NCBI GenBank assembly: GCA_009602725.1
Contig: WELB01000035.1
Location: forward strand, 504,430-568,429
Direction of reading: 5' to 3'
DNA length: 64,000 nt
Source: Spirogloea muscicola
Lineage: Eukaryota > Streptophyta > Zygnematophyceae > Spirogloeales > Spirogloeaceae
Part shown: positions 12,339 to 54,129 of the stretch, in pieces
Layout: each line of letters begins with the position of its first letter
How positions within the stretch are numbered: position 1 is the stretch's first letter
The notes under the pieces: generated by a model
What the model saw: only the letters and a program-made list of their open reading frames with translations
The model's database searches: none
Told to the model about the DNA's origin: nothing
Position numbers and translations under genes: made by a program

Positions 12339-12672
12339 GAGCTCTTCCTTTCGGGGCTGGCTGTTCACAGCCCCTTGCCCCCCTTTTGGGCGAGCCACTT
12401 TTCTTCCAAAGGGGGCAGGGGCTGTGAATGAGAACGTGAATGGCCAGCCCAGAAAGAGTGAACAAGGTCCAAAGGGCCGGAAGGCGCCAAAGATACACTG
12501 CTATGCAAGTGACTACAGCGGATGGATGCTTAGTAACCCCGAAACAGCAGCCATTCTGACTCTTAGTTCCTGAGCGAGTACAGCTTAGCAGCATTTGATG
12601 TGCATCTGTCAGTGTGCTTACCTTTGTACTTGGCCACTCACGCCTTCCATCACTTAAAACACACTCCATTAC
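12339..12672. mobile_element. LINE tails in opposite orientation plus a LINE 3' UTR fragment
   Basis: A + strand tail (GGGCTGGCTGTTCACAGCCCC, then GGGCGAGCC) is followed at once by a minus-strand tail whose hairpin loop contains the direct repeat GTGAATG...GTGAATG. From about 12565 to 12672 the sequence matches the 3' UTR of LINE subfamily 2 (TTTGTACTTGGCCACTC). No coding part survives apart from the final codons. Confidence 0.6.
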
Positions 12673-12799: not shown

Positions 12800-13015
12800 T
12801 GTAGTCTCCACGCCTTCCTGGCTCCTTCAGACCTTGTTCTCTTGTGGGCTGGCTTCTAACAGGGGTTACTGAGTGTCTCGTAGCAGCTTTGTTTCTGTTA
12901 CTTAGCGCTTCCCCTGGCCCCCTTCTCGTACTCTGTTCATTCTTTTTCGGGCTGGTTGTTCCAGCCCCTATTCTCAATGGGCGAGCACTTTCTTCTTCTT
13001 ACAGCCCCCGCCCTC
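12800..13015 (+). mobile_element. LINE tail interrupted in its hairpin loop by another truncated LINE tail
   Basis: The outer tail reads TTGTGGGCTGG at 12843-12852 and resumes as AGCCCCCGCCC after 13002. Between them lies a 134-bp insert (12861-12994) that starts with the last LINE codons AGGGGTTACTGA and ends in its own hairpin tail. The insert is bounded by CTTCTAAC (12853-12860) and CTTCTTAC (12995-13002), an 8-bp target-site duplication with one mismatch. Confidence 0.75.
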
Positions 13016-14412
13016 TTGACTGAGCTGCTGCTTCTTCTGGCTGGCAGAAGTTCCTCTCTCAGGTAACACTTTTAGAAACTAGAGGTTGCTTATTATCTAT
13101 TCGCAGTAGCCGCAGAGTATCATTCTCTTCTCTATGCTTCCAATTTGCTTTGCGTTGTCGTATTGGACGAAAACAGGGGGAAGAATGGGAAGATGGGAAA
13201 GGAACTGGAGGCGCCCCCCTTGACGTGGTCATTCATTTGGAAGAAGCCGAAAGTGCAACTTATAGAGCAATTCTGTTAGCTACTACAGCTGGCTACTCTG
13301 AGCCCAACTTACCAGCATGTCGCAATAAATAGCAGCTGAGAAGGAGACGCCCTACCAAGGGATAGCCAGCATGCAGATGCAAGGCGAGCGCCTGGAATGG
13401 CCGCAGCGAAATAGATAGATGCATGTAGTATATGAGGGCCATGAGCCTGCATCACTGAATATCTTCCTGCTCATCGTGCTACCCCTGCCACCCAGCCACC
13501 GCTCGCCGCGCAAGCTGCTGGAGGAGGCCGACGGCTCCGGTACCTTCATCATCAGAGGATATACTTGTTCCTTGCAGGATGTGGACGTGTTGAAGCTCCT
13601 GACCTTAGGCAGCTTGGCGGACCGCATGCCCTGCCGACATGGCTGAGGGGACCAAATTTGCTTCGGAAGCAACCGGTGTGGACACATCGAGAATGATGCA
13701 TGGGCCGCTGCCAGGAGTGATGCGACGAGCCTTGTGAAAGGGAGACAAGGGGACGATGCTCTTTCATGTGAGGTGGCTGGGAAGGCCAGGCCAACAGGAT
13801 GGACAAGGTCTTCAAGGAAGAGGCCGCCACCTAAGCACTCAGCACAACCTCCATCCCTGCTGCACTTGCCCCATCATTTGCAATTGTTTGCATTTTGAAT
13901 GAACTACGTCAAGGGCTCGGCTTGGCCACCCTTTCATTCATGCGCACCTCGCCCTTGCTCTCTCCATGCTGCAAGTGACTCTGACTTGCAGTTGCTTATA
14001 AGGAAGTATTAAGTGGCTCTCTCGAGCACACACTCACTTTCTGTCTGGAGGGGTCTGTCCGCTCTTTCCAGTCTCTCCCACCACAAGTTAGCCTGTCGGA
14101 TCAATATGTGCTCACTTGTGGTTGTGAAAGTGGCAATTCAGCCGGCTTCTGCATAGTCACCTTAACCCCCCTTAGCATAGAAGAAAGTGCTCGCCCATTG
14201 AGGCCCCTTAGCATAGGGCTTCGCTCTGTGCATTCCAATCTGTGCAGTAGCCTTTGCACTGAAATCGTGATGGCTTGATATGCCTCACTTCTACTTTCAG
14301 CTCACCGGGGGCCTTCCCTCTCCCTCACATCGCCTCCTACTTGGCCTCTCATTATCACGGCCTTTCGTTTGTAGCGCTGTGTCGTAACTGAAAGAGAGTC
14401 ATGAACACCCTC
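13016..14412. other. Interval without a recognised gene
   Basis: Short open frames occur (13150-13332 and 13419-13646 on +). The second includes PPSHRSPRKLLEEADGSG, which looks exon-like but could not be linked to any neighbouring exon or family. No terminal repeats were seen. Confidence 0.35.
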
Positions 14413-14980
14413 TACATTGTCCATTCTTTTTGGGCTGGCTTTGCCAGCTCTTCTTCTCTGGGCGAGCCCTTTCTTTCTTCTCTATGGGCGAGCCCTTTCT
14501 TCCTCTGGCCCCCCTTTCGACACTTTCGGCTGCTTGGGTCCTCGCTTCCATACCCTACTCGAGAACATAGCGAGTCTGGGATATGCACGACGCGAGGATA
14601 TGCTCCCAGCCCAGATGGGTATGCCGGCAGCCTATCTGTCATTTCTGCGACGTCGAGTGTCAACCTGTCTGCAACGAGCTCAGGCGTATGCTCTGCATCA
14701 GAAAGCTGGTCGAGCCTTAGCTGCTGGCACAAGAGCTAGTCAATTGCCGTCCGGTATTCGAGCGTCAGCTAGCGACCTCTATGTGCTGACTCGTGGTTAC
14801 TGAGCGGGTCAGCTTAGCAGCAGGTGACGTACATTTGTCCAATGTGCTTGCCTTTGTACTTGGCCACACATGGCCTCCCCATCTCTTAATATACACGCAT
14901 TTCCTTCTCGTACTTTGTTCATTCTATTTTGGGCTGGCTTTTCCAGCCCCTATCCTCAATGGGCGAGCCCTTCTCTCTTT
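14413..14980 (+). mobile_element. 5'-truncated LINE (subfamily 2) with complete 3' UTR and hairpin tail, preceded by an older tail
   Basis: An older tail (TTTTTGGGCTGGCTTTGCCA with two GGGCGAGCCC motifs) occupies about 14413-14500. A second copy follows: it encodes MGMPAAYLSFLRRRVSTCLQ and ends in SASDLYVLTRGY-stop at about 14804. Its 3' UTR (to 14895) then leads into a standard tail at 14900-14975, GGGCTGGCTTTTCCAGCCCC, then GGGCGAGCCC. This copy best shows the order ORF end, 3' UTR, hairpin tail. Confidence 0.8.
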
Positions 14981-21469: not shown

Positions 21470-22355
21470 GAGGCTCTTCCAGTAGAGGGCGATCGCCGTG
21501 ATTAGCCAGCACAGATAAATGGATTAAAGTAAGTCCGAAGGGGCCAGAAAAATTATTACAACACACACGTCAAGCACACAGCGACTCAAGTGGCCACTAG
21601 ATGCTCAATATCCCCTGTTGATTCAGGCATTTGATTAGCGACCTTTTTGTACTTACCCGTGGTTACTGAGCGGGTCAATCTGCAGTAGGTGATGTACGTC
21701 ACTGTATATGGTTGCCTTTGTACTTGGCCAGTTTGGCCTTCGTTTGTTTCAAATACACCTGAATCTGCCTGTTGAGCAGCTGCAGAAAAGCGCGGCCGAA
21801 TTGACTGGTGGCTGGGAGAAGCCAGCCCAAAAGGAATGGCTGCAGGCAGCCACTCTTCTCTATGGGCGATATCCTACGGATTGCCGTGAGTTGTGACGTT
21901 CAGAAGAAAGAGCTCGCCCATTGAGGATAGGGGCTGGAACAGCCAGCCCAAAAAAGAATGAGCAGAGTACAAGAAGCCCAAGAAGAAGGGGGGCCAGGCG
22001 AAGCACTAAGGCGAAGCACTAAGAAAGAAGCACACAATAAGAAACAAAGCAGCTACTAACTACTCAGTAACCCCTGCTAAGCAGTCGCAGGTCTGAGAGG
22101 CTATGTTCCTGGAAGGACGTCCCCTGGCCAGAGCCAGAGGCAGCAGCGAGGGCTCGGCCGGCACGCAGGTGTGACGTTCGGACCTAGCAACCAGATGTGG
22201 CAGGCGCGGCCATGTTAATGGAAGTCCTTGATCAGGAGCTGTAGCTGCTTTCTTTCTTTGTGTGCTTTGTTTTTTCTTAGCGCTTCCTCTGGCCCCCTTC
22301 TCGTACTTTGTTCATTCTTTTTTGGGCTGGCCTTTCCAGCCCCTATCCTCGCAGC
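21470..22355. mobile_element. Array of truncated LINE 3' ends in both orientations
   Basis: Contains a minus-strand subfamily-2 tail (about 21475-21515), a subfamily-2 + 3' UTR with LTRGY-like codons (about 21630-21780), a minus-strand tail with the CGCGGCCGAATTGACTGGTG sequence (about 21783-21840), a minus-strand LINE 3' end (about 22180 down to 21905) with a short tandem duplication of GCGAAGCACTAAG, and a + strand tail at about 22240-22350. Confidence 0.65.
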
Positions 22356-24345
22356 CTCCGTGTCTCGGCGGAGTGCCTCCTTCCCTGCCTCGAGCTACTC
22401 GGACCTGATGTTGCTCACTCCGGCCAAGCACTCCGACCACCCACCTGCCGACGAGTTCGTCCCCTTGGCGGTGGACGTGCACGGGGCTCTTGGGTCCCAG
22501 TGGCTTGACCTATTGGCTAGGCTTGCGCGGCGGGCTGTGTCCAGCAGACGCGGCGAGCCAGCCGACTTCAACGCCGCGGGCTCGTGGTCTCAGGTATATC
22601 GGATGCGCCTCTCTGTATCCCTGCAGCGGTCCATGGCCCACGCTCTGCATCTGCGAGCTGGCCGTGCTCTCGCTGCGGGCTCTGGCTTTCGTCAGGGTGA
22701 TAGCTTCCCGGCAGCTAGTCTGTCGGAGCTGAGGCTCCTCACTCGTACTTATTGAGTGATCCATCCTCCCCCTGTTTTACCATTGCATCCTCAGGCCCCT
22801 TTGTAGCTGCTCACGGAAGAGCGCGCCCATAGAGAAAGGGGGCCAGCAAAGCCAGCCCAGAAAAAATGGACAATGTCAAAAGCCAAAAAACACGAAAACA
22901 AAAAACACACAGCTAGGCAGCTAGATTAGAAGACACGACGAAATCACAGGAAGCTCAATACCCCCGGGTGAGCAACATCAGGTCGGAGTAGCTCGACGCA
23001 GGAAATGATGCATCCAGACGCGACCCAGAAGCAGCCACGATAGCGCGGCCCGCACGCGAGTGGACGGCATAGGCGAGGGAGCGTTGGAGGGACACGGAGA
23101 GCCGCATCCGGAAGACCTGGGCCAGGGAGCCGGCCGCGTTGAAGCCGGGCAGCCCCCCTGGCAGACCCGGCCGCCGCTCGATGGCCTGCCGGGCAAGCCG
23201 CTGGAGGAGGTCCAGCCAGCCACGGCCATAGGCCCCGTGGACATCGATGGCCAGGGCTGCGAATTCGTCGGCGGGCGGGTGATCAGCATATTTCCGTTCT
23301 TTGCCGCGGGCCGCCACAGCGACCGCATGCCCAGCGGTCGTCGCCGACTTGGAGGGGTTAGCGGAGTCGACACAGTCGGTGGTCACCACATCCGCGATGA
23401 TTCGCGGACCGCCCCCGGGCGGGATGGCGACGAGGTCAGCGCGCCGGGTGTGGATCCGGCCGTCGTCGTCGCGCAGGATGGGCATTATTGACGAGTTCTC
23501 CACGGCCACTTTGTAACCCGCCTCGAGGAAGACGCCTTGCATGCCGTCCCTGAGCAGGTCGTGGGATCCGGTCCGCTCGCCGCCGTGGGCACAACGAAGC
23601 ATGTGGGCCGCCAGCGTCGCAGGGTCAGCGTGGCGGGCACCGCACTCACATTGCGTGACACCGACGAGGCAGGGGGGGAGGAGGCCGAGAAGCCGCTGCA
23701 CCGCCGTCCTGTAGACTGCATCGGGCATTGTGAGGGCCGCGTATATGGGGAGCGCGGATACCCACGCCGCCGCCCCGGGGGAGGAGGCTGAGAGCAGCCT
23801 GGCGCGCCCGCGACTGTCTTGCGGCGGAAGGAGCTCCGCCACCTGGTCGTAGGCCGCTTTGTCCACGAGCGCATTGCAGCGGGCCTGGGCCCGCGGGTCG
23901 GGGGTGTGCGCCAGGTGGATGAACGGAACAACCTGCTGCGACATGTCGGGGTGGGCCGCCAGGAGCCCGTCGCGGGCAGCGCGGAGGGCCTCCTGGAAGG
24001 GCAGCGAGCCGCTCTCCACCTCAGCCACCGCCCGCTCTAAGGTGCGGATGCCGTGAGCTTGGAACCGCTGGCTGATGGGTGCGGCAACCTGTGCCCAGCA
24101 GCCCAGGTAGGCGGCCTCGCAGGCGCGGGCGACTGGGCGGCAGCCCAGACCGCCGCGACTAACAGGCAGGCTGGCTTGGAGCAGCGCGGCTGGCGTGGTA
24201 AGGAAGTCGGGGTGCTGTAGGAGAGCGGCAGCGCTGGCCAGGATGCCGGAGTCAACGCTCTTAAGGCCCTCTGAACCTTTGTGCATTCTTTTTGGGCTGG
24301 CTTTTCGCAGCCCTTGCCCCCATTGGGAGTGCCACTTCTCCACTC
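22356..24345 (+). mobile_element. 5'-truncated LINE copy split by an antisense LINE inserted in its 3' UTR
   Basis: The + strand encodes RLSVSLQRSMAHALHLRAGR and ends LSELRLLTRTY-stop at about 22755. The 3' UTR runs to GTAGCTGCTCAC at 22820 and resumes at about 24256 with CGCTCTTAAGGCCCTCTGAA, then the hairpin tail (GGGCTGGCTTTTCGCAGCCC) to 24345. The uninterrupted order GCTGCTCACCGCTCTTAGGC is present in the sister copy at about 52440-52460 (minus strand), which shows the split directly. Confidence 0.75.
22821..24255 (-). mobile_element. LINE copy with longest surviving ORF: RT C-terminal region, CCHC motif and endonuclease-like domain
   Basis: The minus-strand frame from about 24255 to the stop at 22955 encodes about 430 LINE residues with no internal stop; a further 70 codons upstream belong to a neighbouring tail. 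It starts in the region after the reverse transcriptase palm (GILASAAALLQHPDFLTTPA; LPVSRGGLGCRPVARACEAA). Then come SSPGAAAWVSALP; the zinc-type motif C-x-C-G...H-x3-R-C with GGERTGSH; the motif RRADLVAIPPGGGPRIIADV-VTTD, which resembles the R-x-D...D-V core of restriction-like endonucleases in R2-type LINEs; KERKYADHPPADEFAAL; and ends SYSDLMLLTRGY. The 3' UTR closes with a tail (GGGCTGGCTTTGCTGGCCCC, then GGGCGCGC) at 22821-22890. The 5' part including the RT core is missing, so it cannot move on its own. Confidence 0.85.
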
Positions 24346-24389
24346 GCGGGTACTGAGCTTCCCTAGCATGTTGTCGTGATTGGTAGAGT

Positions 24390-24660
24390 AGAAGAAAGGG
24401 CTCGCCCATTGAAAACAGAAGGTGCTCGCCCATTGAGAAGAGGGGCTGGCAAAGCCAACCCAAAAAGAATGGACAATGTTCAAAGCCAAAGAAACAGGTG
24501 CTGAAAAAGGACTACACTACAAAGTGCAAGATGGTGCAGATGCAGATGGCTGCTCAGTATCCACGTGTGAGCAACAGCAGATCAGAGTAACTCGGAGCAG
24601 GAGAAGCAAATTGAGGATTAGGGGCTGGACAAGCCAGCCCAGGTAGAGGAGTCCTGCCTC
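24390..24660 (-). mobile_element. Very short LINE 3' end (SYSDLLLLTRGY type) with tails
   Basis: Read on the minus strand, codons for PSYSDLLLLTRGY-stop lie at about 24605-24565. They are followed by a 3' UTR and a hairpin tail ending near 24395 with two successive GGGCGAGCC motifs. A further minus tail sits at 24608-24650. Confidence 0.65.
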
Positions 24661-24664
24661 GGCA

Positions 24665-24905
24665 TCTCATTCTTCGGCTTTGGACATTGTCCATTCTTTT
24701 TGGGCTGGCTTTGCCAGTGTCTCGTAGCAGCTTTGTTTCTGTTACTTAGCGCTTCCCCTGGCCCCCTTCTCGTACTCTGTTCATTCTTTTTCGGGCTGGT
24801 TGTTCCAGCCCCTATTCTCAATGGGCGAGCACTTTCTTCTTTGCCAGCCCCTCTTCTCTATGGGCGAGCCTTCTTGTTATCCTCAATGGGCGAGCCCTTC
24901 TTCTT
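24665..24905 (+). mobile_element. LINE tail with a second truncated LINE tail inserted in its hairpin loop
   Basis: The outer tail reads GGGCTGGCTTTGCCAG up to 24717. A 121-bp insert (24718-24838) starts TGTCTCGTAGCAGCTTTG and ends in its own hairpin tail. The outer tail resumes TTGCCAGCCCCTCTTCTC, then GGGCGAGCC. The 9-bp word CTTTGCCAG occurs at 24709-24717 and again at 24839-24847, a perfect target-site duplication. The insert is nearly identical to the one at 12873-12994. Confidence 0.85.
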
Positions 24906-25098
24906 CTTGATCAGGAGAAACTGCAGCTTGCAGTGCTTGCAAGGCAGCCATGACATGGCCCGAGAGCCGCCGCTCCGGCGGCAGCGACAACGTGAGGCTG
25001 CGTTGTCAGACGACGAGCCGGCGGCGGTGATGGCGGCCGGCGTGGGAGCGCCTCGTCTTCGCCGTCGTCCGACGAAGGCGGGCTGAAGGAGCCGAAGG

Positions 25099-49299: not shown

Positions 49300-49384
49300 G
49301 GCGGCGGCGGCGACGGCGGAGGAAAGCGTCGTCTGGGAGCTCGAGCCCAGCGGCCGGGGTTTGGAAAATGCGGCTGCTGGTAGT

Positions 49385-49860
49385 GAAAGAAAGGGCTCGC
49401 CCATTGAGGATAGGGGCTGGAAAAGCCAGCCCAAAAAAGAATGAACAAATTGAAGGAAGAGCGGCTGTGGAAGGGATGGAGTGTGTATTAGTGATGGAGC
49501 GGGTCAGTTTGCTGAAGGTTATGTAGGGCTAGAGATGTGCTTGCCTTTGTACTTCGCCATGGGCCCTCGTTTGTTTTCCAAATACACAAAATTGTTTGAT
49601 GGAGGGCATGTGTAGCCAAGTACAAAGGCAAGAACATTGACAGATGTAAATCACCTGCTGCTAAGCTGACCCGCTCACTAACCACGAGTCGGCCACATAG
49701 AGGTCGCTAACTGATGCCCGAATGCCGGACGGCAATTGACAAGCCCTTGTGCCACCAGCTACGGCTCGACCAGCTTTCTGATGCATGCAGATGGTGTTCG
49801 TGGACAGAAAGTGCGCGCCCATAGAGAAGGTGGGCAGGCAAAGCGTCATGACGACATTGC
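49385..49860 (-). mobile_element. LINE tails and a short subfamily-2 LINE 3' end
   Basis: A minus-strand tail (GGGCTGGCTTTTCCAGCCCC, then GGGCGAGCCC) lies at 49393-49440, immediately upstream of NOL6. At about 49505-49790 the minus strand encodes MHQKAGRAVAGGTRACQLPS and SDLYV, the C-terminus of subfamily 2, flanked by subfamily-2 3' UTR sequence in both orientations. Another degenerate tail is at 49805-49850. Confidence 0.65.
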
Positions 49861-49913
49861 GGAGCCACAGGCTAGGCAGGCAGGCATCTTTCTTCTGACA
49901 GGGCGCTGATGGT

Positions 49914-50020
49914 ACCCCGGTGTCAGCAATAGGAAGTTCAGATGAGCTGAGGGGAGGAAGACCACGTCCATGTCTCCGACGTCTTCTCCGGCTTGGTATT
50001 CCGGCCCACGCTCGAGCTCC
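49914..50020 (+). repeat. Left copy of a ~100-bp direct repeat flanking the LINE/MITE block
   Basis: TGTCAGCAATAGGAAGTTCA followed by GATGAGCTGAGGGGA and CTCCGACGTCTTCTCC recurs at 52967-53075 in the same orientation with few differences. No coding content was recognised. Confidence 0.8.
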
Positions 50021-50039
50021 TCCCCATAAAGAAACTGAG

Positions 50040-50932
50040 CAACTACGAAGCCCTCAGTAACCCCTGCTAAGCAGCCTCAGGCCAGAGATACTGGGTTCCT
50101 GGAAGCGGGGCCCCTGGCCAGAGCCAGAGGCAGCAGCGAGGGCACTTCCGGCACGCAGGTGCAGTGCGCGGGCCATAGACCTCTGCTGCGAGACGGCCAA
50201 GCGCATGCGGTACACCTGCGCTAGCGACCCGGCTGCATGGAAGTCCACTGACTCCCAATGGAAGCGGCGGACGATGACGTGACATGAGAGCTGGTTGAGC
50301 AGCTCGAGCCACCGAGCGCGCATCGCCCTGTGCGTGTTGATAGTGAGCAGGAAGAACTCGTCTTCCCGCGGGTGATCTGCGTACTTGAGCTCCTTGGCCC
50401 GAGCTGCGCAGGCTACCGCATACCAAGCCGTGGTGGCACACTGGGCTGGGTGTGAGCGGTCATGGGGGTCAGTGGTCACCACGTCCAGGGTAAGACGTGG
50501 CCCACCGGCTGGTGGGGTGGCCACAAGGTCGACGCGACGAGCGTGGAGACCGTCGGCCCGTTGCTGGAGCGGCATGACGAAGGAGTTCTCGGCTGCCATC
50601 GAGAAGCCAGCCTCCACAAGGATGCCATGCATCGTATCCCGGAGGCGGTCGTGGGCCGCTGTCCGCTCCCCGCCGTGGGAACAGCACAGAACATGGGCGG
50701 CCAGCTCCCCAGGCTCGGCCCATTGCTCGCCACATTCGCATTGACGCACACCCTGGAGACATGGCGGCGGCAGGCCCAGGAGCCGGTGGACGGCACTGCG
50801 GAATACCTCGTCCGGGAGGGTGAGGGCGTCGTTGAGGGGGAGGGCCTGGAGCCACGCCGCTGCCCCCGGGGAAGAGGCCGAGTGGAGTCGTGCGCACCCG
50901 CGCAAGTCGGCCTCTGGGAGCGGCCTCTCCAA
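50040..50932 (-). mobile_element. 5'-truncated LINE copy with intact C-terminal domain
   Basis: The minus strand is open from 50932 to the stop at 50054 (292 residues). It reads SSPGAAAWLQALP; the motif QCECGEQWAEPGELAAHVLC; GGERTAAHDRLRD; ARRVDLVATPPAGGPRLTLD-VVTTD; LKYADHPREDEFF; and ends ISGLRLLSRGY. The zinc-type ligands and the R-x-D-L...D-V core match the copy at 22955-24255. The 3' UTR is cut at about 50040. It meets the next copy head to head at about 50930. Confidence 0.85.
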
Positions 50933-51838
50933 GCGCGCTTCGCGGCCGTGATGGACAAGGCAGCCTTCACCACCGCCTTGCTGCAGCTCCTGGAGGCCGA
51001 CCTGCGCACTCCATTCGGCCTCTTCCCCGGGGGCAGCGGCGTGGCTTCAGGCCCTCCCAATCAACGACGCCCTCACGCTCTGCGACTATGTCTTTCGCAC
51101 TGCCGTCCACCGGCTCCTCGGCCTGCCGCCGCCATGTCTTCATGGTGTGCGTCAATGTGAGTGCGGCGAGCGAGGGGCCGGGCCTGGCGAGCTGGCTGCC
51201 CACGTTCTGCGCTGTTCCCACGGCGGAGAGCGGACGGCGGCCCACGACCGCCTCCGGGATGCGATGCATGGCATCCTGGTGGAGGCTGGCTACTCGGTGG
51301 CAGCAGAGCACTCCGGCGTCATGCCGCTCCAGGAAAGGGCCGACGGTCTTCACGCATGCCGTGTAGACCTTGTGGCCACCCCACAAGCCGGTGGGCCACG
51401 TCTTCTCCTGGACGTGGTGACTACCGACGCATTTGACCGCTCCCACCCCGCCCAGTGTGCCACCAAGGCTGGGTATGCGGTCGCCTGCGCCGCTCGGGCC
51501 AAGGAGCTCAAATACGCCGACCATCCGCGGGAAGACGAGTTCTTCCCGTTGGCAATTGACACCCATGGGGCGCTGGGCGCTCGTGGCTCGAGCTGCTCAA
51601 CCAGCTCGCCCACCACGCCATCGCCCGTCGCTTCCATGGGGAGCCGGCTTTCCTGCAGCCGGGTCGCTGGCGCAGGTGTACCGTATGCGCTTGCCGTCTC
51701 GCTGCAGAGGTCTATGGCCCGCGCGCTGCACCTGCGTGCCGGCAGAGCCCTCGCTGCTGCCTCTGGCTCTGGCCAAGGGGACCCGCTTCCAGGAGCCCAG
51801 CTTCTCTGACCCAAGGCTGCTTAGCAGGTGATAACTGC

Positions 51839-51979
51839 GGGATAATATACACCGGGTCGGATGGACGCACCTTGGCCTCGTATTGGCCTCGATTTAGCAA
51901 GGTCTTGACTCCGAGAGTCCATTCAGTGCGCAACACGTACCCTTCGGCCGCGACCGTCCGACCCGGTGTAAATTGGCCA
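51839..51979. mobile_element. MITE copy 1 (141 bp)
   Basis: Non-coding element with terminal inverted repeats. The left arm reads ACACCGGGTCGGATGGACGC; the right arm, reverse-complemented, ACACCGGGTCGGACGGTCGC. The left terminus is worn relative to the other two copies. It lies within the 3' UTR of the LINE copy starting at 50930. Confidence 0.75.
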
Positions 51980-52027
51980 TAAGAGTGCTTCGTAGCTGCT
52001 TTGTTTCTTCTGTGCTTGTATTTCTTA

Positions 52028-52168
52028 GGGCCACTTTACACTGGGACGGACGGACGCAAATTGGCCTCTATTTAGCCTCACTTGACAAGTACTTTGACCC
52101 AACCGCTCCATACACTGTGCGACACGTACCCCTCCGCCGCGTCCGTCCGTCCTGGTGTAAATTGGCCC
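52028..52168. mobile_element. MITE copy 2 (141 bp)
   Basis: Terminal inverted repeats of about 30 bp: left GGGCCACTTTACACTGGGAC, right (reverse complement) GGGCCAATTTACACCAGGAC, both followed by GGACGGACGC. Flanks are TTA and TCA. It interrupts the LINE 3' UTR at TTTCTTA|GCGCTTCC. No coding capacity; a transposase would have to act in trans. Confidence 0.85.
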
Positions 52169-52274
52169 TCAGTGCTTCCCCTGGCCCCCTTCTCGTACTT
52201 TGTTCATTCGTTTTTGGGCTGGCTTTTCCAGCCCCTATCCTCAATGGGCGAGCCCTTGCTTCTAACAGGGCGCT

Positions 52275-52735
52275 GATAGAGAGCAAGCGCGGCCAAATTG
52301 ACTGGTGGCTTGGAGAGGCCAGCCCGAAAGGAATGGACAAGGACAAAAGAATCCTGGGTGCTAATAAGAAGAAGTGGCACTCCCAATGGGGGCAAGGGCT
52401 GCGAAAAGCCAGCCCAAAAAGAATTCACAAAGGTTCAGAGGGGCCTAAGAGCGGTGAGCAGCTACAAAGGGGCCTGAGGATGCAATGGTAAAACAGGGGG
52501 AGGATGGATCACTCAATAAGTACGAGTGAGGAGCCTCAGATCCGACAGACTAGCTGCCGGGAAGCTATCACCCTGACGAAAGCCAGAGCCCGCAGCGAGA
52601 GCACGGCCAGCTCGCAGATGCAGAGCGTGGGCCATGGACCGCTGCAGGGATACAGAGAGGCGCATCCGATATACCTGAGCCCACGAGCCCGCGGCGTTGA
52701 AGTCGGCTGGCTCGCCGCGTCTGCGTCGTAATAAG
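52275..52735 (-). mobile_element. LINE tails and a 5'-truncated LINE copy nearly identical to the one at 22.5 kb
   Basis: A minus tail lies at 52275-52345. From 52735 down to about 52380 the minus strand carries a LINE 3' end encoding RLSVSLQRSMAHALHLRAGR and ending ELRLLTRTY-stop at about 52512, with uninterrupted 3' UTR and the tail GGGCTGGCTTTTCGCAGCCC. Over about 270 bp it differs from the + copy at 22545-22815 at only a few positions. Confidence 0.8.
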
Positions 52736-52767
52736 TACTAAGACAGCAAGCAGCAAGGGGACTCTCA

Positions 52768-52908
52768 GGGCCACTTTACACTTGCCCGGTCGGTCACCTA
52801 TTAGCCGCATTTTGGCCTCAATTTGGCAAGTATTTGACCACGAGCGCCCATACAACGCACGACACGTATCCTCCAACAGTGACCGACCGGACAAGTGTGA
52901 ATTGGCCC
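52768..52908. mobile_element. MITE copy 3 (141 bp) with 3-bp target duplication
   Basis: Left arm GGGCCACTTTACACTTGCCC then GGTCGGTCAC; right arm (reverse complement) GGGCCAATTCACACTTGTCC then GGTCGGTCAC. It is flanked on both sides by TCA (52765-52767 and 52909-52911). The middle shares TTTGGCCTCAATTTGGCAAG-like sequence with the other two copies. Confidence 0.85.
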
Positions 52909-52966
52909 TCAGTATCCTCTAATCAGTAGATGCAAGTCTGAATTGCTAGACGGCGGAAAGACGATA

Positions 52967-53075
52967 GTACCCCTGTGTCAGCAATAGGAAGTTCAGATGA
53001 GCTGAGGGGATGTCGACCACGTCCACGTCTCCGACGTCTTCTCCCGCTTGGTGTTCCGGCCACGCTCGCGCTCCC
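52967..53075 (+). repeat. Right copy of the ~100-bp direct repeat
   Basis: Repeats 49914-50020 in the same orientation. Together they bracket 2.9 kb of LINE and MITE sequence. Confidence 0.8.
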
Positions 53076-54129
53076 CCCCGACGGCCCTCGTCGGGCTAAG
53101 CGCCGCCGCGACGTCCCAAGCCCGTCTCGGTGCCCCCGTTATCCGACGGCGCCGCCCCGTTATCCGACGCTCTCGTCTCCGCCCAGCCCCACAGCGCGCG
53201 CGCGGAAGTGCGGATTCGAACATTTTGTGGTGGCGGGCGATGGCGAAAAGGGAGGCCTCTGCATGTAGAGCAGAGCGGCTGATGGGGAGGGGGAGAAGAG
53301 GGGGAATGGGATCACAAAAAGGGAGGCGCGCCCATGGAAGCGAGAGTGGGTGGCGGGGAGGGAGGGTGGTGGAGGGAGGAGGAGCTGGGAACTAGCGTCC
53401 TCCCGCCATTGCTGCGCCACAGGCCCCACCGCCGCCGCCGCCGCCCGCCGCCGCGACGCGGGCCGCAAGCTCCGCCGCCGCCGCCGTCGGGCCTGCCAGC
53501 CTGCGGCGCCGCGGCTGCGCGAGGAGCCCGTGTCCTCCGCCGCCATTGCAGCCTCGGTTGCGTAGCGTCCGCCTGCAACTGCCGCTCTCCTCTCTCGGCC
53601 ACCAGCGCCAGGGGCCGTCAAGAGACGAGAGCTAAGCTGCGGCATGTGATCAGTAGCCTAAGGCTTCTCTGCGAGCTCGTAGGGAGCAGCTGTGAGGGTA
53701 TATCGACCAGCTCATGGGCTACATGAGCTGGTCGATACACCTGTCTGGCCAGTGCCTTCGCACACAGGGAGGCGGATGGGGTTCACCTCGTTGCCCCAGC
53801 TCAGACAAAGACAACAGCAGGCGATGAGTCAGCTTCTTCACGATAGGGACCTTCCACATTACGGCTTCTAGGGCAACAAAGGACTTGGAAGCAGATGACG
53901 ATGGAAGATCCCTTGCTTCCAGTAGAAGTAGATGAAGGACTGGAGATGAAGAAGAGGCCACAAAATGGTGAAGAGAGGAGGTAGGGCAATTCCAGGATTA
54001 TATCAGTCAACATTTGCCCTGCTATGAAACAGAATGAAGCTCTCTGCTAGCTAGGCTTGCTAGTACTGGAGTTCCATCACGTACTCCAAGCCCTGACCCT
54101 ATGATTTGTAAACTGCACGATGCAGCCAG
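53076..54129. other. GC-rich to mixed interval 5' of FAS1; promoter and unresolved first exons
   Basis: The stretch 53080-53640 is rich in GCC/CCG and CpG and contains overlapping open frames with no recognised domain, like the head regions of other genes in the window. From 53640 it becomes AT-richer and includes a perfect hairpin (53701-53737). First exons of the FAS1 gene must lie here but were not identified. Confidence 0.45.
53701..53737. repeat. Perfect 16-bp inverted repeat with 5-nt loop
   Basis: TATCGACCAGCTCATG, loop GGCTA, then CATGAGCTGGTCGATA. There is no T-run after it. It lies upstream of the first identified FAS1 exon. Confidence 0.95.

Follow-up and report, generated by a model that had tools for sequence, protein, structure and literature searches.

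Two LINE 3' ends inserted at the same base of the tail hairpins of other LINE copies in a 64-kb stretch of Spirogloea muscicola DNA

The window, by which we mean the whole stretch of DNA that was analysed (64 kb of presumably nuclear DNA, 766 N, GC content 44-66% per 2 kb), contains LINE families whose 3' ends have a common hairpin, GGGCTGG...CCAGCCC, and finish in approximately CTTTCTTC(T). A profile of 12 tails gave 31 matches at E < 0.001 in the window, the 12 included. The exact sequence GGGCTGG was found 55 times, 23 times after a T-rich stretch, and 22 of these 23 were tail-like by eye. For the statistics 29 tail 3' ends were listed, two of which are both units of one tail and three of which are fragments; the 27 hairpin sites and the island borders were counted by hand. 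B-type tails with two terminal units (about 26 nt, ...WATGGGCGAGCCCTTTCTT) were seen at 14449-14501, 24417-24391 (minus) and 24844-24901, and A-type tails have one unit. The tail starts at 22858 and 59121 (minus), without a matching 3' arm, were considered as insertions and rejected, the arm having diverged instead. The features on which the main observation is built are the following.

24680-24901, plus strand: host B-type tail, recognised by nhmmer and by the rejoin score; halves at 24680-24717 and 24839-24870; further terminal unit behind them at 24878-24901
24709-24717, plus strand: left copy of the target duplication of event a, CTTTGCCAG, in the loop and 3' arm of the host hairpin
24718-24838, plus strand: event a, an inserted 5'-truncated A' LINE 3' end (121 bp) that carries a hairpin and tail of its own
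24839-24847, plus strand: right copy of the target duplication of event a, CTTTGCCAG
12853-12862, plus strand: left duplication of event b, CTTCTAACAG, immediately 3' of GGGCTGG (12846-12852)
12863-12994, plus strand: event b, a second A' copy of 132 bp, its last 121 bp the same as event a
12995-13004, plus strand: right duplication of event b, CTTCTTACAG, with one mismatch to the left copy, then CCCCC of the host arm

An earlier, sequence-only reading had described an outer tail split within its hairpin by a LINE 3' end at 24718-24838, with a perfect 9-bp target duplication, and both sequence and coordinates were correct to the base. The host tail starts GGGCTGGCTTTGCCAG at 24702 and resumes as CTTTGCCAGCCCC after the insert. 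With these boundaries the duplication was exact at 9 bp, and failed at 8 and 10 bp. Among random boundary pairs 121 bp apart, 8 of 390,634 had an exact 9-bp repeat; when a slack of +-3 bp was allowed, such repeats were found in 45 of 58,634 trials in the window and in 14 of 60,000 in the repeat islands. The insert was identical at 121 of 121 positions to the last 121 bases of 12863-12994, which bears out its description as a LINE 3' end. When the flanks were rejoined they formed one complete tail of 64.4 bits, compared to 32.2 and 26.3 bits for the halves alone (model of 11 tails, without the host tail and the insert, but with the near-identical A' copy at 12949). The duplication and the rejoined host tail support the proposed target-primed insertion into the tail of a sister element. 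The duplication places the bottom-strand cut directly behind GGGCTGG, one bp ahead of the TTT loop, and the top-strand cut within the 3' arm (CCAG^CCCC; ^, cut). Because the cut positions are given by the duplication, the insertion site consists of the loop and the 3' arm and not of the loop alone; the earlier placement in the hairpin was thus right, and its restriction to the loop was not.

Event b is a second insertion, independent of event a. It lies in the hairpin of another family, at GGGCTGG^CTTCT(A/T)ACAG, with a 10-bp duplication. When a model built on the C, D, E, F, G, H and K tails was used, the rejoined host reached 27.8 bits (11.4 and 7.6 bits for the sides alone), and 2 of 588 random control joins exceeded this score. 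With the A/B tail model the join gave only 10.8 bits, and the host is therefore not of the A/B kind. The unjoined right side outscored the join (36.0 bits with the A/B model, 26.7 with the all-tails model), because the own end of the A' insert lies in it. A 10-mer with one mismatch, as in event b, was found with slack in 171 of 58,634 random trials in the window and in 249 of 60,000 in the islands. Events a and b have different hosts, 5' ends and duplication lengths, but their cut points relative to the hairpin arms are the same. Their common 3' end together with unlike 5' ends is the pattern of 5' truncation known for LINEs. At nearly the same place of the hairpin, the E-type tail at 12450 (minus) showed a 12-bp tandem duplication, CATTCACGTTCT, right after GGGCTGGC, which could be slippage or a minute insertion. 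We did not keep it as a third hairpin insertion, as slippage suffices.

To resolve further insertions, the right flanks of the 29 tail ends were searched and the boundaries were read by eye. Together with events a and b, the following insertions made up a set of ten.

22239-24905, plus strand: chimeric insertion of an A-tail fragment (22239-22350) and a 5'-truncated LINE B(+) (from 22351), with later insertions inside; 12-bp duplications CTTGATCAGGAG at 22227-22238 and 24906-24917
22421-24340, plus strand: LINE D, interrupting the coding end of B(+) and in turn split by B(-); duplication CACTC at 22416-22420 and 24341-24345
22815-24251, minus strand: 5'-truncated LINE B(-), within the D 3'UTR and some 40 bp ahead of the D hairpin; nearly blunt, ends approximate
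24389-24641, minus strand: another A-tail/B chimera, within the B(+) 3'UTR; 7-bp duplication CTCTACC at 24648-24642 and 24388-24382
21902-22169, minus strand: A-type insertion, not in a hairpin; 10-bp duplication GAACGTCACA
21786-21838, minus strand: C-type tail of 53 bp, inserted into the remnant of a K/B-like tail; duplication CTGCAGC of 7 bp
14181-14203, minus strand: insertion of just the last bases of a tail, 23 bp; 13-bp duplication CTATGCTAAGGGG
49911-52264, plus strand: head-to-head LINE pair, a minus piece and then A(+); 13-bp duplications ACAGGGCGCTGAT

Nine of the insertions have repeats of 5-13 bp, one of these with a mismatch, and one further insertion is nearly blunt. The latter, B(-), was counted because a paralogue without the insertion exists (near 52454). 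Copies at 14931, 49414 (minus) and 14432, with possible weaker duplications by eye, were excluded. The island around event a was thus founded by a chimeric insertion, and it then received D, B(-) inside D, the second chimera and A'. The joined flanks of D read ...SYSDLMLLTRGY-stop and put D nested in B, so D and B(+) were dropped as template-jump partners. The C-type insertion at 21786-21838 was likewise dropped as an antisense hairpin hit, its host remnant being without the normal 5' arm. The pair at 49911-52264 adjoins the end of a C tail and resembles a 5' inversion, but its template regions overlap.

In both A-tail/B chimeras the A part stops at ...TCCTC, shortly beyond the hairpin; one junction is ambiguous by 3 bases. 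Such nearly equal end points may be due to template jumping or to an older fused element. In the available text of the cited work, chimeric LINE insertions inside one pair of target duplications are described in Magnaporthe (PMC2104539), and template jumping in vitro is described for the R2 reverse transcriptase (PMC8857657). Here too two RNA-derived parts are fused between one duplication pair; as a difference to the Magnaporthe chimeras described there, both parts are LINE ends and the A part ends at the same place in both. The chimera junctions are at 22350 (plus) and 24613 (minus), and the 23-bp insertion 14203-14181 starts with CCTC, which could point to a recurrent break, stop or jump point in the RNA. 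Since each of the two chimeras carries an A tail and a B end inside one duplication pair, the tail-on-tail order has a second cause, and the chimeras account in part for the tail-on-tail islands, for which self-targeting had earlier been proposed.

Some other arrangements were observed in the islands. A K-type LINE 3'UTR is followed by a same-orientation A-type element at three places (14903 and 18203, plus; 49449, minus), either as an old K-A fusion or by repeated insertion. Sequences of approximately 140 bp that are related to one another (74-77% similarity) are located at 51848-51991, 52023-52178 and 52763-52913; by eye, the copy near 52032-52167 starts with GGGCCACTTTACAC, ends with GTGTAAATTGGCCC and resembles a small DNA transposon with inverted repeats, lying within a LINE 3'UTR.

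The enzyme was addressed through three LINE coding ends from the window, which were aligned; the modelled stretch (23223-23593) belongs to the coding end of B(-).

22958-23839, minus strand: coding end of LINE B(-), with a restriction-like endonuclease-like domain

The model made from the three sequences has a predicted restriction-like endonuclease fold (pLDDT 62), and a longer model of 294 residues (pLDDT 38) was too poor for use. In a fold search against the PDB the two best matches were R2 retrotransposon proteins, both weak (E 0.016, with TM 0.34, and E 0.021), and none reached 0.001. The motif KX2KY, which in the part of the source available is placed in the second helix of LINE restriction-like endonucleases (PMC5678591), was present as KERKY or KELKY in all three coding ends. 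Pfam gave only sub-cutoff matches for the three ends, with no reverse transcriptase match; no reverse transcriptase was matched by Pfam in six frames of 49300-53100 either, the copies scanned being 5'-truncated. NCBIfam gave one match far below the cut-off (E 0.11), and a PDB sequence search gave none at E 1. The predicted fold, the motif and the weak R2 match support a restriction-like endonuclease, the enzyme type named in the earlier reading, and the LINE group of the window looks R2-like.

The tail sequence is conserved, and an RNA structure of the tail is plausible. When folded as RNA, four whole tails formed the hairpin plus a lower stem (GUYCAUU/AAUGGGC), with z values between -1.9 and -4.4; the interrupted half-tail had z -1.2. 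RNAalifold predicted only the inner hairpin of 6 pairs, with no pair changed on both sides. A two-stem structure that we named ourselves was 87.6% paired versus 36-52% in slid versions; 489 of 500 shuffles did equally well, and no pair was changed on both sides. An Rfam search gave nothing at gathering scores. The tail patterns had no match in viral_contigs; 6 stretches there fitted the pattern of the LINE coding end, and tblastn found no relative of it. In genome_contigs the tail pattern had 3 matches, in bacterial or MAG contigs, about the chance expectation from the pattern length.

Hairpins were the target of two of the ten resolved insertions; the remaining eight were divided equally between LINE copies outside the hairpin and other DNA. 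LINE sequence was thus the target in 6 of 10 cases versus 17% of the window (P 0.003), such cases being easier to resolve. Target duplications started with CT in 6 of 9 cases versus 7.3% of background positions (P 1e-5), with the caveat that a duplication can be lengthened where tail end and target happen to have bases in common. We compared the hairpin hits with four null models, namely all window positions, all island positions, CT sites in the window and CT sites in the islands. For the final statistics one was added to each CT-site count of GGGCTGGCT (20 and 18); in the 58-bp host tail of event a, the other CT sites number seven. For the 29 tail ends the expected numbers of exact hairpin hits were 0.006, 0.036, 0.065 and 0.34 in this order, and the P values for at least two hits were 1.8e-5, 6e-4, 0.002 and 0.046. 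With the ten resolved insertions the same P values were 2e-6, 7e-5, 2e-4 and 0.006. The chance of one more hit given event a, which is the fairer figure because event a defined the site, was 0.006, 0.034, 0.061 and 0.28 for the 29 ends. The evidence for hairpin targeting as the rule depends on the null, with P from 1.8e-5 to 0.046 for the 29 tail ends, and at least two exact hits are marginal against the island CT sites. We concluded that the case for the hairpin as a target is suggestive rather than established and that a loose CT preference inside nests accounts for most of it. The elements may favour their own tails, on the basis of one 64-kb window.

The explanation that we favour, and hold to be somewhat more likely than not, is one of target-primed insertions with a loose ^CT preference, into nests that also grow by two-end insertions. 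Nests of 5'-truncated copies from several related LINE families are present in the window. For event a, an older B-type tail would be nicked by the putative restriction-like endonuclease of the element, on its bottom strand and directly 3' of GGGCTGG, and the freed DNA end, terminating in AG, could prime the copying of an A' RNA that ends ...CUUUCUU(CU). Copying would halt after 121 bases, and staggered cuts would leave the 9-bp repeat. The enzyme would loosely prefer sites read as ^CT; because the CTTT of the hairpin meets this preference, tails would be usable targets, though not the sole ones. Repeated insertion into older copies, and insertions that bring two element ends together, would enlarge the nests. 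Support comes from the perfect duplication with the rejoined host tail, from event b, the CT starts and the chimeras, from the predicted endonuclease fold with its motif, and from the resolved insertions elsewhere in LINE bodies, for example D in the coding end of B. Against it, the CT preference rests on nine duplications, two hits at one hairpin base somewhat exceed what a loose preference predicts (P 0.006 for ten insertions and 0.046 for 29 ends, island CT sites), the R2 fold match is weak, and in the parts scanned no reverse transcriptase was seen.

A stricter preference was also considered, in which the endonuclease of the A' subfamily, or of the whole group, recognises the LINE tail hairpin as sequence or as extruded cruciform and cuts one strand at GGGCTGG^ and the opposite strand at CAG^CCC, so that each insertion creates a new target. 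We regard this as possible, but on the unlikely side. Both resolved A' insertions lie at the same base of hairpins from different families, and both strand cuts hold their place relative to the arms despite duplications of 9 and 10 bp. Such coincidence is hardly expected from the window or island positions alone (0.006 and 0.036 expected exact hits for the 29 tail ends). Single-stranded DNA of the hairpins folds stably (-9.2 and -5.8 kcal/mol), and the R2 endonuclease is, in the accessible part of the source, similar to Holliday-junction resolvases (PMC3636483). However, 8 of the 10 resolved insertions lie elsewhere, one more hit after event a has a chance of 0.28 under the island CT-site null, and both hits come from one subfamily at a site defined by the first hit. 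The earlier suggestion that the family uses its own 3' hairpin as target thus gained a further case in event b, but does not describe most of the resolved insertions. In its widest form, a LINE lineage with a resolvase-like endonuclease would use the palindromic 3' tail hairpin of its own and sister copies as DNA target, one short sequence being both RNA signal and landing site; each insertion would make a new target, and nests would expand with genes unharmed. This version appears doubtful.

An absence of any preference, with random insertions in a repeat-rich region of which two share a base by chance, seems improbable. The islands are indeed dense in old copies and other elements, and the 6 of 10 resolved insertions in LINE sequence fall where nesting is easier to resolve; nevertheless two exact hits have a P of 1.8e-5 (window) or 6e-4 (islands) for the 29 tail ends, and 6 of 9 duplications start with CT. 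Recombination, gene conversion or misassembly between similar tails, with no insertion, is very improbable, for although the tails are alike and chimeras are present in the window, the left junction joins a B hairpin to an unrelated A' 3'UTR, an exact duplication flanks the insert, and the same element has different flanks and a different 5' end in event b.

The closest precedent is given by the Zepp and ZeppL LINEs of green algae, which in the available text of the sources show nested insertion targeting existing copies, frequent 5' truncation and clusters of mostly 3' ends (PMC8226300, PMC3446292). Nested insertion into existing copies was likewise found in the window. In the same partial sources Zepp is placed in the L1 group, whereas the coding ends here resemble a restriction-like endonuclease; a further difference is the tail here, a hairpin and CTTTCTTC, and Zepp forms one cluster per chromosome, whereas several families are mixed in small islands of this single 64-kb window. 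With R2-type LINEs, including Utopia and other target-specific groups (PMC5678591, PMC4640811; seen in part), the elements have in common the predicted endonuclease fold, KX2KY and a C-terminal position after a Cys/His motif. They differ in the spacing of this motif, CX1CX12HX3C here, which departs from the zinc knuckle CX2-3CX7-8HX4C published there, and in their mixed targets; the window gave no match to an rRNA or snRNA gene. The stringent-type LINEs ZfL2 and UnaL2 also have a conserved 3' stem-loop followed by short repeats (PMC4176376, available text). Their stem-loops are RNA signals for the protein, whereas here the same sequence as DNA also took insertions. By analogy with ZfL2, the tail hairpin may have a role in recognition by the protein of the element. 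In the accessible parts of the open-access literature searched, no report of a LINE targeting its own tail hairpin was found.

The initial observation was thus confirmed and a second case was added, and its interpretation was partly supported. On the modest reading, the window provides a base-resolved order of events, a target preference open to test, and chimera formation in an R2-looking LINE group. If hairpin targeting were true genome-wide, the elements would bring their own safe harbour, with one signal acting as both RNA recognition element and DNA target. The formation of LINE nests, for example of the Zepp clusters that are thought to mark algal centromeres, would then have a mechanism at the level of sequence.
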